A stretch of DNA of 48,862 nucleotides from a virus. Shown here piece by piece: positions 1 through 6,010 of this stretch (positions are counted from its first letter, which is position 1; each line of letters begins with the position of its first letter). The stretch covers positions 1 to 48,862 of IMG/VR virus record IMGVR_UViG_3300021492_000030; one strand, written 5' to 3'. Below the pieces are notes generated by a model. It searched no databases and was not told the DNA's origin. It saw only the letters and a list, made by a program, of their open reading frames with translations. A program made the translations under genes and the position numbers.

Positions 1-1
1 A

Positions 2-121
2 GCAGAGAAGCTTGAAGATTTGAAGAGCGAGAAGTGGATTGATGCTACATATGGAAGAGCGGTGAAAGAACATGAAGATTACTTCGGTAAAGCTTTTGAA
101 GGTAGCGAGGGGGGACAATGA
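2..121 (+). CDS. 3' end of Rad52-like single-strand annealing protein
   Basis: This is the last 39 codons of the gene that begins at 48108 at the far end of the window. The last two bases of the window plus base 1 form a Thr codon, and the frame then stays open from base 2 to the TGA at 119-121. The segment is charged and helical (Glu/Lys rich), as expected for the tail of an annealing protein. The stop overlaps the start of the exonuclease gene as ATGA, so the two are translationally coupled. See the entry at 48108 for the main annotation. Confidence 0.75.
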   Translation, partial: AEKLEDLKSEKWIDATYGRAVKEHEDYFGKAFEGSEGGQ

Positions 122-1113
122 ACATCGAAAAGATTGAGTCCACGTTAAATGAAAAACTGCAAAAACACATCCTCTCTGAAATCACAGACTCAGTTAGTAG
201 AGACACAAACAGAGCCTCTGACCTCGGTGTCGAGTGTGACACTTATCATGCACTGTGCAGGCTCAAAGGTGAGCTCAGACCGAGGCTGACACCTGACAAG
301 AAGCAACTCTTCAGAACAGGTACAATCGTTGAGATTCCGAACCTGACGTTCTTGAACCAAGCCGGGCTGCCGATTCAGCCAGCTGCTCAGCAGTACAGAT
401 GGCATAAATACAAAATCTCTGGCAGAACTGATGGTATCGCACTGCTCAACATAGATGGTAAAAAAGTAGAAGTCCCGGCAGAGCATAAAGCATGCTCGCC
501 GCAGGTGTTCAGGTCAATTGTTCAACACAAGAATCAGAATATACCATTGACCAAATCAAAATATCACTGGGTCAGAAAGTATCCAGCTCAGTTGATGATA
601 TACATGCTGCAGAAAGGCGTTGAATACGGGCTCTGGATTTTCTTTGACAAAGTGAGCGGCAGATTTCTGTTCTGGGTCATGTCTCTAGACTATGATTATG
701 CAGAAGAGTTGCTGAAGAGAGCAGAAAGAGCGAATGAGAATGCAGAGAAAGGCATAATCCCTGAGCCAAAATATAAAGACATCTGCACATCATGCGACTT
801 TGCCTTGACTTATTGTTTCCCGGACAAAGACTTCGGTGAGGGTTTCGATATTATTTCTGATGAAGAGCTGGTCGAGAAGCTGCAGAGAAGAGAAGAGCTG
901 AAAGCTGCTGCTGAAGAGTATCAGGCACTTGACAAAGAAATCAAAAAGATGTTCAGAGGCAAGAATGCTGTTGTTGGTGACTTTCTGATTGAAAGCAAGA
1001 GATATGAAACTACGTACTATGACATTCCAAATGATATGAAGCAGAAGTTTGCTCAGAAACGGGAGGCTTTCCGAGTGGACATCAAAAAACTTGGAACTGG
1101 AGGTGACTTATGA
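118..1113 (+). CDS. PD-(D/E)XK exonuclease with probable iron-sulfur cluster (Cas4/AddB-like)
   Basis: The 331-residue protein shows the RecB-type nuclease motifs: Asp105 in GRTDG, Glu122 and Lys124 in the ExK motif, and Gln158 in YPAQL. Cys223, Cys226 and Cys233 near the C-terminus, with Cys40 or Cys47 near the N-terminus, match the four-cysteine arrangement that holds a 4Fe-4S cluster in Cas4 and AddB nucleases. It should resect double-stranded DNA ends. It overlaps the annealing-protein gene by four bases, and such exonuclease plus annealing protein pairs are the standard phage recombination module. The start ATG follows a GGGGGG ribosome-binding run. Family assignment is firm; the cluster is inferred. 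Confidence 0.85.
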   Translation: MNIEKIESTLNEKLQKHILSEITDSVSRDTNRASDLGVECDTYHALCRLKGELRPRLTPDKKQLFRTGTIVEIPNLTFLNQAGLPIQPAAQQYRWHKYKISGRTDGIALLNIDGKKVEVPAEHKACSPQVFRSIVQHKNQNIPLTKSKYHWVRKYPAQLMIYMLQKGVEYGLWIFFDKVSGRFLFWVMSLDYDYAEELLKRAERANENAEKGIIPEPKYKDICTSCDFALTYCFPDKDFGEGFDIISDEELVEKLQRREELKAAAEEYQALDKEIKKMFRGKNAVVGDFLIESKRYETTYYDIPNDMKQKFAQKREAFRVDIKKLGTGGDL

Positions 1114-1577
1114 ACTATTTAGAAGCAAAGAAAAAAGCAAAAGAAAAATATGAGATGCACCTGAAGCAGATTGAGCTCTGTAAAGAGGTCTCAGACAAGA
1201 TTGCTGCTGCTCTGCCAGAGGGCTGGAATATAGACATTGGTGATGTGATTTTTAATCTTTCAATCTGGAAAGGAAGCATAAACGATGGAGAAGAGGCCGA
1301 CGCAGGTGAATTCAAATATGTTTGTTCAATCGTTCAAAAGGCTTATCCAGAGCTCAATCTACATAGGTTTGCTCATGTCAGTGATGATGGTAAAATAATT
1401 TTCCTCAAAGCTTACGATTACCTAAGAGACTCGGAAAAATCAATACTTCTTGAGATTGAAATTATTGCTTACAATCCAAAGCTAATGCCGAACTGCAAGA
1501 TTGAATGGAAAGAAGAGGTAGTAAAAAGAGCTGTTGTCAGTGATGAATGCTTGGGAATAGGAGGAGGAAATGAGTGA
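1110..1577 (+). CDS. hypothetical protein in recombination operon
   Basis: The 155-residue protein is not recognised. It begins with a charged helix rich in Lys and Glu (residues 1-30), then has an alternating hydrophobic pattern suggesting a mixed alpha/beta fold. Its ATG overlaps the stop of the exonuclease gene (ATGA) and its end overlaps the next small gene by eight bases, so it belongs to the same operon. A role in recombination is suggested only by position. Confidence 0.7.
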   Translation: MNYLEAKKKAKEKYEMHLKQIELCKEVSDKIAAALPEGWNIDIGDVIFNLSIWKGSINDGEEADAGEFKYVCSIVQKAYPELNLHRFAHVSDDGKIIFLKAYDYLRDSEKSILLEIEIIAYNPKLMPNCKIEWKEEVVKRAVVSDECLGIGGGNE

Positions 1578-1755
1578 TACTAAATTCTGCCCATTTACTG
1601 ACAATACATGTCTTCAGGGGATATGTGCGTTGTGGGATTCCAGATATGAATGTTGCTCAATTAAGCTAGTAGCAAAGAAACTAGAAGACATCTCGAAGTA
1701 TATGAAGTTTCTATCGAACTTAGAGAACATTGCCATCAACATGAGGGAGAAATGA
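1570..1755 (+). CDS. small cysteine-rich protein
   Basis: This 61-residue protein carries five cysteines in its first half (residues 7, 14, 19, 28 and 29), including CPF and CALW motifs, followed by an amphipathic helix. The cysteine spacing suggests a metal site, but no family is recognised. It has a good ribosome-binding site (GGAGGAAATG) inside the end of the preceding gene and is the last gene before the terminator at 1762. Confidence 0.6.
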   Translation: MSDTKFCPFTDNTCLQGICALWDSRYECCSIKLVAKKLEDISKYMKFLSNLENIAINMREK

Positions 1756-1761
1756 GCCAAG

Positions 1762-1835
1762 AGGCCGCCAGTCAAAAAATCCTCCCTTTTCCCTCCTCCT
1801 TTAGTTTCTCTCATCCTGGCTGGCGGCCTTTTTTT
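1762..1835 (+). terminator. intrinsic terminator of the recombination operon
   Basis: A perfect 10-base-pair GC-rich stem (AGGCCGCCAG at 1762-1771 and CTGGCGGCCT at 1820-1829) is followed directly by seven T residues. The loop is unusually long, about 48 bases and pyrimidine-rich. It closes the operon that starts near 46.1 kb. Confidence 0.85.
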
Positions 1836-1856
1836 GAAAGCATGGAAAAAAATTTC

Positions 1857-1885
1857 TTGACAAAGCTTAGCCTGTTTTTTATACT
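1857..1885 (+). promoter_or_regulatory. sigma70 promoter upstream of structured RNA and replication genes
   Basis: TTGACA (1857-1862), a 17-base spacer and TATACT (1880-1885) make a near-consensus promoter directly after the terminator. Transcription should start near 1892. The -35 context CTTGACAAAGC recurs at 13211 and 22960. Confidence 0.85.
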
Positions 1886-1891
1886 TAAGAC

Positions 1892-2013
1892 ATGATAAGC
1901 CTGGTGATGGACAATGAACATTGAAAACAAAGCCCCAGACACAGCCTATCTCTATTCAGAGATATCCATTTTTCCATCACCAGGTAAGGTTGTGCTGGGG
2001 CTTTCTCTTTTAT
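1892..2013 (+). ncRNA. highly structured leader or small RNA, possible pseudoknot
   Basis: Three strong helices can be read. Helix A pairs 1900-1911 with 1973-1984 (12 perfect pairs). Helix B pairs 1929-1946 with 1988-2004 (17 pairs with one bulged A and one G-U). Helix C is a 7-pair hairpin (1947-1953 with 1958-1964) stacked on the end of B. A and B cross, so they form either a pseudoknot or mutually exclusive states. A U-rich tract (2005-2013) follows B, so B is terminator-like. The unit starts at a consensus promoter and ends about 120 bases later, just before the gene at 2025. It may be an attenuator or riboswitch-like leader or a free small RNA; no known family is recognised. Confidence 0.6.
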
Positions 2014-2024
2014 TGGGGGGATAG
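1914..2024 (+). CDS. possible 36-residue leader peptide
   Basis: An open frame starts at an ATG in the context GGACAATGAACAT, nearly identical to the start region of the gene at 118, and ends at a TAG that directly abuts the ATG at 2025. It spans the crossing helices of the structured RNA, so translation would compete with folding. The upstream ribosome-binding site is weak (GGTGATGGA). The peptide (rich in Ser, Leu and Gly near the end) resembles nothing recognised and may be chance. Confidence 0.25.
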   Translation: MNIENKAPDTAYLYSEISIFPSPGKVVLGLSLLLGG

Positions 2025-2576
2025 ATGAACATTGTAGATAAGGTTAGAGAATATTTAGAAGAAAGGAGTCAAGAACTAGCTACAAAATTCTATTCTTATA
2101 TCATTTCTGAATTCGATGAAAATCCAGACCGAGTAATTGAAAGCCCTGTCGAACAATTATTTTATATTGAGTGGAGATTTAGAGAGTTTAGAGGTGATAT
2201 AGATTTATATCTTATGCCTCAATTTCAGGATAAATCAACAGGGAAATATAGATTAGATTTTGCTATTGATTTTATCCAAGAAATGATTTCTAGGTATGGA
2301 GAGATTGCTGTGGGTATGGAAAATCCAAAATTAGGGATTGAAATTGACAGCCATGTTTGGCATGAGAGAACAAAGGAACAGGTTGAATATCATAAAAAAA
2401 GAGAAAGATTCTTAATCTCTAAAGGGTGGAAACTATTAAGATTCACTGGTAGTGAAATTTATCGCAATCCTTCAAAGTGTGTGGACGAAACCTTAGAGGT
2501 AGCTTATCTGTTAAGAAAAGAATTCCATGAGCAAATCCAAAAAAAGTTAGGTAAAAATGAACTGGAAAAAGGGTAA
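2025..2576 (+). CDS. DUF559/Vsr-like endonuclease fold protein
   Basis: The 183-residue protein carries the DUF559-type restriction fold in its second half: Asp79 in YRLDF, the strand GIEIDSHVWH with Glu106, Asp108 and His113, then an Arg/Lys-rich helix and the strand WKLLRF. These are the metal and DNA contacts seen in Vsr-like and DUF559 enzymes. The first 70 residues are helical and include PVEQLFYIEW, common at the start of this family. It is first in the replication operon, behind the structured RNA, and has a GGGGGG ribosome-binding run. A DNA repair or nicking role is inferred; the substrate is unknown. Base composition is AT-richer than the structural genes. Confidence 0.75.
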   Translation: MNIVDKVREYLEERSQELATKFYSYIISEFDENPDRVIESPVEQLFYIEWRFREFRGDIDLYLMPQFQDKSTGKYRLDFAIDFIQEMISRYGEIAVGMENPKLGIEIDSHVWHERTKEQVEYHKKRERFLISKGWKLLRFTGSEIYRNPSKCVDETLEVAYLLRKEFHEQIQKKLGKNELEKG

Positions 2577-2588
2577 TAGGAGAAAGAC

Positions 2589-3335
2589 ATGAGGAAAAGA
2601 GTATCAGACAATGTATGGATTCCATTTTGGGTAGATAAATGGATTTTTGGTTCAATGAGAATTGAATTTAGCCTCGAAGAAAGAGCTATTTGGATTGATT
2701 TACTTGCTCTTGCTTCTAAAGACGATGGCTATATTAGAGCAAATGAAGAAACACCATATCCAATACAACAGCTTGCTGGGATGCTTTTAATCCCCAATAG
2801 TATCTTAAAATCGGCAATAGAAAAATTCATAAAAAAAAGAAAATTAACTCGCCTTAAAAATGGCACTCTCTATATCACAAACTGGGAAAAATATCAACTT
2901 AGTGAAAGGCAAAAAAGACGTTATGAGTCCAAGAAAGCGGACACTATGGCCGAAAAAGCGGACACTATGGCCGAAAAAGCGGACACTAAATCAAATCAAA
3001 TCAAATCAAATCAAATCAAAACAAAACATTTAGAAAAATATTCTGAAATTATTTTCAATTTTGAAAAACAACAATGGGAAAATATTACAAATAAAGATAG
3101 AGAAAGATGGGAAAAAACATATCCAGCTTGTGATATAGAATTTGAATTGAATAAAATGGCAGACTGGCTAATAAGTAATCCAAATAAGAAGAAAAAAAAA
3201 TATAGAGCCTTTATATCCAGATGGCTTTCTAGAGTTCAAGAGTCAGGTGGCACTAAAGGGATTAAACCAGCACAAAAAGAAATGGATGAACTTTTGGCTA
3301 AGCTGGAATCAAAAAATGAGGGGAAGAATGATTAA
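2589..3335 (+). CDS. phage replication organizer with N-terminal winged helix
   Basis: The 248-residue protein begins like the phage replisome organizer N-terminal domain: a Trp-rich segment, then IWIDLLALASKDDGYI and a leucine-rich helix followed by a GTLYITNWEKYQ strand. Residues 114-141 are a low-complexity linker (ADTMAEK and NQIKS repeats) encoded by tandem DNA repeats. The C-terminal half is charged and helical and could contact the helicase encoded just downstream. Embedding of repeats in the initiator gene recalls the lambda O arrangement. The protein is inferred to bind those repeats and load DnaB. It could also be a generic winged-helix replication protein. Confidence 0.7.
   Translation: MRKRVSDNVWIPFWVDKWIFGSMRIEFSLEERAIWIDLLALASKDDGYIRANEETPYPIQQLAGMLLIPNSILKSAIEKFIKKRKLTRLKNGTLYITNWEKYQLSERQKRRYESKKADTMAEKADTMAEKADTKSNQIKSNQIKTKHLEKYSEIIFNFEKQQWENITNKDRERWEKTYPACDIEFELNKMADWLISNPNKKKKKYRAFISRWLSRVQESGGTKGIKPAQKEMDELLAKLESKNEGKND
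2937..3028 (+). repeat. iteron-like tandem repeats plus AT-rich pentamers (candidate origin)
   Basis: Two full copies and one 10-base partial copy of a 21-base repeat (GCGGACACTATGGCCGAAAAA split as 2937-2957, 2958-2978 and 2979-2988) are followed at once by six AATCA pentamers (2989-3018) and two AAACA units (3019-3028). GC-rich iterons next to an AT-rich, strand-biased tract inside an initiator gene match the general design of lambda-type origins. The unit lengths keep the reading frame. Confidence 0.55.
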
Positions 3336-3501
3336 ATCCTGTAAAAACTGCATATACAGCTATGTAGAAAGATGGATTATCGGAGATGTTTATAAATGTC
3401 ACTTAGGATTGAACAGGCTAAGTAAATACAATCCTAATGATTCTGTAGAAGACGTCGGAAGAATCTGCAAGTTATGGAAAGGCAAAAATGGTAGAAACTG
3501 A
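3328..3501 (+). CDS. small zinc-binding-type protein, SCKxC family
   Basis: This 57-residue protein starts at an ATG inside the end of the organizer gene, behind GAGGGGAAG. It has CKNC near the N-terminus and further single cysteines in YKCHLG and RICKLW, suggesting one metal site. Its start (SCKNCIYSYVER) is closely similar to residues 64-75 of the protein encoded at 7129, so the two are paralogous modules. Function is unknown. Confidence 0.6.
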   Translation: MIKSCKNCIYSYVERWIIGDVYKCHLGLNRLSKYNPNDSVEDVGRICKLWKGKNGRN

Positions 3502-4735
3502 GAAAGCAATTCTAGCGGCTGTCATTGAGTGGCCAGACAATGTTATTCTGCTCATTGAAAACTGTGACGATGAATTCTTTCAGAGTCCTGAAAACCGAGA
3601 GCTGTATAGAATCGTAAAAGGCTTGTATGAAGGCCGCTCGATAATAGACTGGGCAACGGTGTTTGACTTGAGTAGAGGCCGTGTGAGGGAGAGCTATTTG
3701 GCCTCGCTACTTGATACCCTGAAAGGTCTTTATCCCTCAGGCGTATCCTCATACATAAAAGAGAAGGTTAGGCTTATAAAAAAAGTCAGGACAAAGAAAA
3801 AACTTCTGGCTGAAATCGAAAAGCAGGCAAAGCTTACGGATGTAGATTTCGAGAAGATACGTCAAATCATTGATGAGGCTAAAATTGTGGAAACGCTGGA
3901 AGAAGAAAAAAAATTTGAGGCTGCTTACAAAGAATATATTGAATGGAAAAGCAGGGAAAAGACAAACATAACGCTGGGCTTTCCATCATTTGACAGGCTT
4001 ATAGGCTCATTGAATTATGGTGAGATTGTGTCTATCTTTGGTAGAACCTATACAGCAAAGACGTTTCTAATGCTAAATATAATGGAACATCTTGTCGGCA
4101 ACCTGATGGATGATGAGAAAATCGGATTCTTTTCCCTGGAGATGGCAAAGCCTGCGATTTTCGAGCGGATAGCGCAGATATTTTTCGGGAAAAGCCGATG
4201 GGAAATTCAGGATGAGCTGAAGGAAGAGAAAATTAACTTCCAGGAGCTGTTGAAACGATATGAAAATGTAAATCTCTACGGAAAAGTATATTCTGTGTCT
4301 GAGATAGAGCAGCTTACAAAAAGAGATAACCTCAGGATTGTATTCATTGACTTTCTTCAGCTTTTGAAAGAGGAAAGAGCGGGCAGCCAGTATGAAAAGA
4401 CTACAAAGAAAATTCGTGAGATAAAAGAACTTGCTAAGAATCAATCAGTTGTTATTTTTCTGGCCGTCCAGATTTCAAGAAAGGGTGAAGGCGGATGGGA
4501 GGCAGTCTCAATGGAGATGGCACGTGAGAGTGGACAGATCGAGGAGCTTTCGGATTTTATAATCGGCGTATGGAATCCGAGTTTGAAAGAAGGTGCATCC
4601 TCAAAGTGGAAGGGAAAGATATGTATGAAGCTATTGAAAAACAAAAGAGGGGGACCGTTTTCATTGATTGCAAAGTTTGATGAAAGGTCTGGAAGAATTA
4701 TTGAGCTTGTACATGAGCTTAATGAATATTTTTGA
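3488..4735 (+). CDS. dnaB: DnaB-like replicative helicase
   Basis: The 415-residue protein has the DnaB layout: an N-terminal helical domain (about 1-100), a linker, and a RecA-type ATPase from about 150. Visible motifs are Walker A GRTYTAKT (185-192), the SLEM strand with Glu217, Walker B IVFIDFLQLL with Asp288, the sensor Gln328 in VQISR, and the segment RESGQIEELSDFIIGV before an Arg-rich end. Walker A has Ala in place of the usual Gly before the Lys. The gene overlaps the small zinc protein by 14 bases and follows the organizer, so it is the replisome helicase. No primase gene was found, so priming may be done by the host. Confidence 0.88.
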   Translation: MVETEKAILAAVIEWPDNVILLIENCDDEFFQSPENRELYRIVKGLYEGRSIIDWATVFDLSRGRVRESYLASLLDTLKGLYPSGVSSYIKEKVRLIKKVRTKKKLLAEIEKQAKLTDVDFEKIRQIIDEAKIVETLEEEKKFEAAYKEYIEWKSREKTNITLGFPSFDRLIGSLNYGEIVSIFGRTYTAKTFLMLNIMEHLVGNLMDDEKIGFFSLEMAKPAIFERIAQIFFGKSRWEIQDELKEEKINFQELLKRYENVNLYGKVYSVSEIEQLTKRDNLRIVFIDFLQLLKEERAGSQYEKTTKKIREIKELAKNQSVVIFLAVQISRKGEGGWEAVSMEMARESGQIEELSDFIIGVWNPSLKEGASSKWKGKICMKLLKNKRGGPFSLIAKFDERSGRIIELVHELNEYF

Positions 4736-4760
4736 AAGAGAATGAATATTTTTAAAAGAG
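4721..4760 (+). repeat. 20-base tandem duplication at the end of the helicase gene
   Basis: The 20 bases at 4721-4740 are repeated at 4741-4760 with one difference (G to A). The first copy holds the last codons and stop of the helicase gene; the second copy lies outside it. This looks like a recent slippage or duplication event. Confidence 0.8.
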
Positions 4761-4772
4761 CAGGAGGTGCTA

Positions 4773-5129
4773 ATGAAACCTGAGAAAAAATTTAAGACAG
4801 AAGATTATCTTATGAATTATTTAATCGCCTCAAAGATGTTCGGAGCTGAGAAGCCAGAATTTGGCTCTTTTTGCACTGGTTTTTATGCAGGCCTGCTGGC
4901 TGCAATAAACATTCTAAGAGTGAAACTATCGCAGGAGGATACCTTCGTCAATGGCAAATCAATTGCTGCTGCGTTGTCGGTCATTATGGAAGATTTTAGG
5001 GACAAAATAACAGAAATAGAGGAAGTCAACAGGCTTGCTGATATGGCATTCGGAAAAAAAATGAGCAAGGCGGCAAGAGAAGCAATATATCAGTATGCAG
5101 TAGAAATTACTGAAGGGAAAAAGAACTGA
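4773..5129 (+). CDS. hypothetical protein downstream of helicase
   Basis: The 118-residue, mostly helical protein is not recognised. The ATG at 4773 is preferred because AGGAGG lies five bases upstream; an in-frame GTG at 4767 is part of that ribosome-binding site. Hydrophobic helices around residues 27-45 and 50-65 and a charged C-terminus suggest a small soluble helical bundle. Its place in the replication operon is the only clue to function. Confidence 0.65.
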   Translation: MKPEKKFKTEDYLMNYLIASKMFGAEKPEFGSFCTGFYAGLLAAINILRVKLSQEDTFVNGKSIAAALSVIMEDFRDKITEIEEVNRLADMAFGKKMSKAAREAIYQYAVEITEGKKN

Positions 5130-5170
5130 CTGGGATTATTTTTGAAGCCATATGAAAGGAGGTGATGCCT

Positions 5171-5817
5171 ATGACACCGAAAATAATCGGTGTTGACTAG
5201 ATGAGTGTAATTACAGTCCAAGCCTGGCAGGTGACTGTACAATATGCGCTCTATACGCACTGAAAAAAGTGCGTGGTGTAAAAGACTCAAAAAAATTGAC
5301 CCATAAACAACGGCTAAAGCTGTTCGAGAAACTGCATTATAACAGCGTTTATTCAATTATGCCAGCTACCGTAAATTCAATCAATAGTATTGGAATTTAT
5401 AAAGCCCGGAACTATGCCATAGCAACAGCCCTTGAGAACCTGTACTTGCAGCTATTAGGGATGAACATCAAGTCGGAGAAAGCAATCATTGACGGGCCGT
5501 TCTCAAGAGCGTGGGTAAACTATTTCAGAAGCAAGGTTGCCATATCGGTTGAGTGCATGGTCAATGCGGATGAAATTGTGTACGAAGTGAGTGCAGCGTC
5601 GATTGTTGCCAGAATCTATGCTGATGCTCTATTCGAAGGATTTGGAAGCTTCTATCCGGGCTATAATTTGGAGAAAAATCACGGCTCGCCCGACAGGGTC
5701 ATGTACGAAAAAATCAGAAAAGACGGCGCCTGTCCGTATATGAGAGTCAACTATGGTAAATCATGGTGGGAAAAAATAAGAAAGGGAAAGGAGCAAATCA
5801 ATGAAAGAACCAAGTAA
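5171..5817 (+). pseudogene. rnhB: RNase HII-like gene with early frameshift
   Basis: The ATG at 5171, behind AAAGGAGG, encodes MTPKIIGVD and then meets TAG at 5198. The rest of the protein continues in another frame: DE at 5200-5205, then SLAG, GVKDSKKL, an INSIGI helix region, the DEIVYEVSAASIVARIYAD motif and a GSP-rich end, all typical of RNase HII. Removing five bases (CTAGA at 5197-5201 region) would restore IGVDE with the catalytic Asp-Glu pair; a -1 shift would also join the parts with two extra residues. Even when repaired, the usual GRG loop reads NYS. The 3' part may be expressed alone from GTG 5269, but would then lack the catalytic pair. Either a decayed gene, an assembly error or a recoding site. 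Confidence 0.75.
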
Positions 5818-6010
5818 AAAGAAACTTTTAGAACGGCTGACCAGTTTGCAAAAGAGGAAAAACGAAGAATCCATAGTAACCGCCGAATGCCCGTATTGTA
5901 GAGTGATAATAAAATTTAAAAAACTCGGCTCAGCCCCAATAGGAAAAATTAAAATAAGATGTCCTAGATGCAAGATATTATTCAATTACTCAGAGACAAC
6001 ACCACAATGA
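5801..6010 (+). CDS. small zinc-ribbon protein
   Basis: This 69-residue protein has a Lys-rich helical N-terminus followed by two CxxC knuckles (CPYC and CPRC) separated by a basic strand, a classic zinc ribbon. It overlaps the end of the RNase HII region by 17 bases, with GGAAAGGAG upstream. Such ribbons often bind nucleic acid or RNA polymerase; the partner is unknown. Confidence 0.65.
   Translation: MKEPSKKKLLERLTSLQKRKNEESIVTAECPYCRVIIKFKKLGSAPIGKIKIRCPRCKILFNYSETTPQ

Follow-up and report, generated by a model that had tools for sequence, protein, structure and literature searches.

What is transcribed from the strong promoter that follows the exonuclease operon and precedes the replication genes of this phage? 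The DNA derives from a virus record in IMG/VR (IMGVR_UViG_3300021492_000030, positions 1–48,862), and this whole stretch of 48,862 nucleotides is here called the window. A preliminary description, made from the letters alone, had proposed a compact pseudoknotted RNA that might be a small RNA, a riboswitch-like attenuator or a copy-number control RNA for the replication operon. Taken as a whole, a pseudoknotted, promoter-driven and terminated RNA is strongly supported by what follows and an attenuator is possible, but the part concerning copy-number control found no support. With about even confidence we regard the locus as the gene for a discrete, pseudoknotted phage small RNA of roughly 120 nt, whose helices are conserved and whose function is inferred.

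Genomic context and related phages

The genes of the record, which include those for terminase and portal, mark it as phage. In the relatives L006, L007 and L008 about 6 bases separate the two ends of the window, so that it probably represents a nearly complete, circularly permuted genome. The upstream operon contains a Cas4-like exonuclease gene (118–1113) and ends in hairpin T1 (1759–1832, plus strand), a terminator-like stem with a 42-nt C/U-rich loop; the promoter and then the pseudoknot RNA element follow. Next on the same strand are a DUF559/MTES_1575-type endonuclease-like gene (2025–2576) and the replisome organiser gene (Phage_rep_org_N, 2589–3335) which heads the replication genes, both assigned by Pfam, and beyond them a DnaB-like helicase gene (3488–4735).

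T1 folds at -26.8 kcal/mol, a value that none of 200 shuffles equalled, and a hairpin with a C/U-rich loop occupies this position in six of six phages, L006 and L009 included. Its stem is long and G+C-rich, and the G-poor loop carries CCUCC-type (anti-Shine-Dalgarno-like) tracts; pairing of this loop with nearby ribosome-binding sites was not consistently above that given by composition. The mir-2058 family matched the T1 hairpin of L009 at 27.9 bits, below its cut-off of 90, and we regard this as the chance match of a long hairpin.

Four relatives in IMG/VR carry the RNA, always with the Cas4-like exonuclease gene on one side and the replication genes on the other. The exonuclease, used as query, returned L006, L007 and L008 (89–91% protein identity), a search with the RNA pattern returned L007, L008 and the distant L009, and alignment of the exonucleases added L034, which the loop-based patterns had missed because its loop differs. 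The exonuclease of L009 is only 29–34% identical, though the order of its neighbouring genes is kept. The known members thus number five, four of them close. Inspection of the hits from separate pattern searches led us to discard 16 of 19, 2 of 2 and 3 of 5 as chance matches, and a nucleotide search in named phages and plasmids gave no match to the element.

Counting the window, the RNA is present in five of the six phages with the exonuclease arrangement. The exception, L006, has neither promoter nor RNA, and its replication genes still follow: a search of its 24.5-kb record with the RNA model gave no match, and no promoter-like site by the criteria used for the relatives' promoters lies between T1 and these genes. 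Since they are kept all the same, the RNA seems unneeded for their expression. Directly after T1, at the position of promoter and RNA in the other phages, L006 carries a 72-aa ORF (2156–2374) which is ribbon-helix-helix-like by eye, is without a match in Pfam or PHROG, and is followed by the replication gene. The protein that it encodes may stand in for the RNA.

The stretch from the RNA to the replication gene contains what may be called a cargo site (2025–2576 in the window, 5908–6906 in L007 and 4384–5376 in L034). Its occupants are of the DUF559/MTES_1575 nuclease-like, N6_N4 methylase or MT-A70 methylase type; L008 and L009 have none, so that in two of five phages the replication gene itself comes directly after the RNA.

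An arrangement of promoter-like site, helices in the order A-B-A-B and terminator was also observed in three nearly identical contigs (L048, L050 and L051; minus strand, about 190–290 in L051), where it adjoins a primase-helicase-like gene. Crossing stems that large arise in 305 of 1000 shuffles, the copies scarcely differ from one another, and model R1 gave no match to them at E 0.001; on these grounds they are not counted as members.

Structure of the RNA

The fold consists of two long helices which cross each other and a hairpin inside one of them. Helix A joins 1899–1911 to 1973–1985 on the plus strand. Its core is the perfect 12-pair helix first described (1900–1911 with 1973–1984), which the G-U pair 1899–1985 extends to 13 pairs. 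An unpaired linker, L1 (1912–1928), with a conserved AAUGAA..AUU..AA pattern, leads to helix B (1929–1946 with 1988–2004), the 3' arm of which is also the 3' side of a terminator stem. The 17 pairs previously assigned to helix B are all there, one of them G-U, but they are not continuous, being divided 10 + 7 by the bulged A1939. Hairpin H (1947–1964; 7 pairs, arms 1947–1953 and 1958–1964) lies inside helix B, on which it had been proposed to stack, and abuts it directly; its loop is AUUC, within the motif CUAUUCAG. Linker lengths are kept in all five phages, at 17–20 nt for L1 and 2–3 nt between the 3' arms of A and B.

Helices A and B are compatible. Computed energies are -26 to -35 kcal/mol for B and H as a nested fold and -18 to -24 for the A duplex; their sum of -44 to -58 kcal/mol, which carries no pseudoknot penalty and is indicative only, lies below the -34 to -38 computed for the best nested fold. 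Because the two helices are compatible, no competing (antiterminator) helix is seen, and none appeared in RNAalifold over the transcribed part, in a search for alternatives that was not exhaustive. Pair lists for the individual sequences use arms trimmed to their pairing part and are therefore descriptive only.

Transcription signals

The sigma-70-type promoter (TTGACA-17-TATACT, 1857–1885, plus strand) has its boxes at 1857–1862 and 1880–1885, separated by a 17-nt spacer, and agrees with the consensus at 11 of 12 bases. It is the best of ten promoter-like sites in positions 1–6000 of the window. All five RNA-carrying phages have such a promoter: L007, L008 and L034 match the consensus at 12/12 bases with an 18-nt spacer, and L009 at 10/12 with a 17-nt spacer. 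From the promoter position, the terminator and the homologues in L007, L008, L034 and L009 we predict an RNA running from about 1892 to 2014, both ends being placed by consensus signals. The U-rich tract (2002–2014) sets its length, counted from the predicted start, at about 120 nt. The consensus promoter and the U-rich end some 120 bases on, both claimed in the preliminary description, are thus upheld.

Since helix B runs directly into the U-rich tract, it has the form of an intrinsic-terminator stem. A G+C-rich stem (AAAGCCCC..GGGGCUUU in the window) followed by a U-rich tract occurs in five of five phages. The terminator loop of 41 nt is unusually long and contains hairpin H as well as the 3' arm of helix A; a simple terminator scan with loops of at most 8 nt does not list it.

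The strong promoter beside the replisome organiser gene might also suggest that the transcript is a replication primer or marks an origin, and structured replication primers are known in plasmids. We consider this highly improbable: the conserved fold includes the terminator as an integral part, the GC skew rises almost steadily over the window with no turning point there, and L006 is without the element.

Covariation and chance

The preliminary description had named covariation in related phages as the means of checking the helices, and uncompensated breaks in both of them as the outcome that would speak against it; the opposite was seen. Alignment A9 holds the window, L007, L008 and L034 and was made with MAFFT, not fitted to the structure. 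We preferred it over A4–A6 because these set the 3' arm of helix A in L007 one base out of register. In an unselected count 97.3% of 148 pair cells hold, the failures all falling at helix ends (A, inner end, three cells; B, outer end, one cell). Both sides have changed in 11 of 37 pairs (six in A, four in B and one in H), so that each of the crossing helices is itself kept by compensatory changes. Shuffles gave 6.3 +/- 1.3 such pairs and none of 500 reached 11; with the partners slid by 1–3 columns there were at most 4. The covariation score is 0.419, against 0.237 when shuffled (0/500 as high) and at most 0.185 when slid. One measure, the number of further pair types, was not above shuffles (455/500). 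Every cell of hairpin H is paired, and RNAalifold recovers B and H unprompted; pairs that it proposed with the promoter were ignored, the promoter not being transcribed.

The relatives keep the knotted fold while its letters change, and the fold therefore matters. Compensatory changes preserve the crossing helices and the internal hairpin, and the promoter and the U-rich tract stay in register with this fold.

Crossing complementarity of this extent had been judged unlikely at random, and so it proved when the best pair of crossing stems was sought in 500 dinucleotide shuffles of each sequence. In the window both stems have at least 10 contiguous pairs, G-U allowed. The observed value was reached by no shuffle for the window, L008 and L034, and by one each for L007 and L009. 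Covariation is the stronger test of the two. Nested folding alone also beats shuffles, with z of -2.8 to -4.7 for the five sequences.

Inverted repeats may covary as DNA too, and one could take the helices for protein-binding sites at the DNA level, or for chance. To this we give the least weight of all the explanations considered, in view of two long repeats which cross, eleven double changes, G-U intermediates, and a promoter and U-tract in register in five phages. The exchanges among G-C, G-U and A-U in helix B point to pairing in RNA rather than in DNA.

L009 is not reliably alignable to the other four. Its layout has the same order, with a U-rich tract, a different A of 13 pairs and a B whose 11+5 pairs flank a small internal loop; the H loop motif is kept in L009 and changed to AUCA in L034. 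A model made from the four sequences and limited to B and H scores L009 at 21.7 bits (E 0.0096 over 168 kb), and in the whole-record model search it did not reach the threshold of E 0.001. A weak model score, together with layout, promoter, T1 and gene order, makes L009 a weakly assigned, putative member.

The RNA and its possible roles

We propose that transcription starts near 1892 from the sigma-70 promoter and that helix A would form first. The 3' arm of B, once made, would pair with the 5' arm inside the loop of A and, with the U-rich tract, release the RNA; the terminator would itself be one stem of the pseudoknot. Helix A begins about 7 nt from the predicted 5' end and B ends at the 3' end. 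The RNA would be clamped at both ends and should for that reason be stable. Its accessible and conserved parts would be the H loop and the L1 strand, which likely contact a partner, whether RNA or protein, of phage or host. The replication region would produce such an RNA without depending on the upstream operon, and termination would also hold the promoter back from driving the replication operon at full strength.

In favour of the small RNA are the full consensus match of the promoter in three relatives, the built-in terminator, the clamping of both ends, the lack of any competing fold in what was seen, and L006, which manages without the element; moreover, the gene downstream varies (DUF559-type, N6_N4 methylase, MT-A70 or replication genes) and the RNA stays. 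Against it, the element is at the same site in all five phages, with 16–25 nt from the stem to the next start codon, a fixed spacing which a free small RNA does not need.

The RNA adjoins replication genes, and c4 of phages P1 and P7 is likewise a structured phage RNA, as stated in PMC12197685. One might accordingly think of copy control, either by an antisense/target pair or by a c4-like RNA pairing with a downstream ribosome-binding site. On the minus strand downstream of the RNA, however, no promoter-like site occurs within 2.8 kb, the nearest being at 4833 (weaker promoters are possible). Pairing of the RNA with the downstream ribosome-binding site is no better than in shuffles in five of five phages (fractions 0.13–0.73), and Rfam gave no c4 match. 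The copy-number control suggested earlier is thus improbable.

Rfam 15 at its gathering threshold gave no match over the whole window, riboswitches included, and permissive settings (window and L009) returned sub-threshold matches only, none of them credible. A literature search found no description of the element, which is not proof of its being unpublished. A type III toxin-antitoxin RNA (ToxI) was considered and rejected: the element has no tandem repeat and the next gene matches DUF559/MTES_1575.

The five members form an RNA family, probably of small RNAs, that Rfam 15 lacks. Its covariation is unusually clear for so small a number of sequences, its terminator doubles as a pseudoknot stem, and its site at the border of the phage replication region is independent of the gene after it. 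It also shows that phage genomes contain structured RNAs which escape sequence searches because their helices change sequence fast.

A possible leader ORF through the terminator

A possible leader ORF of 36 codons (1914–2024, plus strand) begins within L1, crosses the terminator and extends as far as the next start codon. It suggests a possible, though less favoured, reading in which the element acts in cis to attenuate transcription of the replication operon, being off by default and gated by translation. Helix B would be the terminator, and helix A, covering the region before AUG 1914, would pair the AUG before B is made. A ribosome starting on the ORF before the 3' arm of A is made would cover the 5' arm of B, block the terminator and stop where the next gene has its start codon. 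The small-RNA and attenuator readings are not exclusive of each other.

The ORF (36–40 codons) is open through the terminator in five of five phages, which counts against a simple small RNA, and the other two frames are interrupted in all five. Its stop abuts or overlaps the start of the next gene (TAG-ATG, ATGAGTAA twice, GTGCCTGA and GTGA), although these genes differ in family; the constant distance from stem to start codon also fits. Before the 3' arm of B is made the best fold is helix A, and truncating the RNA after the 3' arm of A leaves the AUG completely paired in the window and L007, partly paired in L008 and L034, but unpaired in L009.

Several observations speak against such gating. 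When the tails were shuffled, the frame stayed open with a probability of 0.36, 0.125, 0.24, 0.19 and 0.61 for the five sequences, so the product is 0.05 over three lineages and 0.001 only with all five taken as independent. No Shine-Dalgarno sequence is conserved before AUG 1914, any such sequence being weak or absent by eye in L008, L034 and L009, and the leader peptide is not conserved beyond its first residues. The genes following in L006 are expressed, if at all, without the promoter, and no alternative antiterminator fold is seen. The riboswitch-like attenuator of the preliminary description is likewise possible, but it finds neither a competing antiterminator helix nor an Rfam riboswitch match.

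An overlapping 10-codon ORF starts where transcription presumably begins (1892 in the window) in five of five phages; that of L009 begins at a non-equivalent site, and little weight is given to it. The bases around AUG 1914 (GGACAATGAACATTGAAAA) are a near-repeat of the exonuclease start at 118 (GGACAATGAACATCGAAAA), a likeness only partly common to the relatives.

A pseudoknot terminator gated by translation, in which the ORF passes the RNA's own terminator and reaches the next start codon, is in our judgement doubtful. Since the ORF crosses the terminator, every terminated copy would be a non-stop mRNA and a substrate for tmRNA. Were this true, only read-through copies would complete the ORF, passing the ribosome to whichever gene the phage has downstream, and the element would be a plug-in control element of the phage family for the cargo site of its replication region.

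Comparison with known systems

The c4 RNA is located upstream of ant. Our element resembles it in being a phage-borne structured RNA; it differs in having no Rfam match, no complementarity to ribosome-binding sites beyond shuffles, and a pseudoknotted terminator of its own. The c4 antisense RNA of P1/P7 is entered as RF01695 in a table of PMC2864571, and its function depends on secondary structure according to a statement in PMC12197685.

If the attenuator reading is right, the element would also recall the rep leaders of IncI-alpha, IncB and IncL/M plasmids, for which titles cited in PMC10724649 name a repY/repZ pseudoknot, in placing a pseudoknot and a short ORF ahead of a replication gene. 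It departs from them in having a terminator as its second stem and in showing no sign of an antisense RNA. In leaders of the IncI/IncB type the pseudoknot activates translation and is controlled by an antisense RNA.

Ribosome-mediated attenuators of the trp/leu type have the order promoter, short ORF, terminator and operon, and so does the element described here. Unlike them, it shows no competing antiterminator fold and no runs of regulatory codons, and it has a pseudoknot in place of mutually exclusive hairpins. With ordinary small-RNA genes of bacteria and phages it shares a strong sigma-70 promoter, a length of about 120 nt and a Rho-independent terminator; what sets it apart from these is that the terminator loop pairs with the 5' end of the RNA, over 11–13 pairs, in a covarying pseudoknot.
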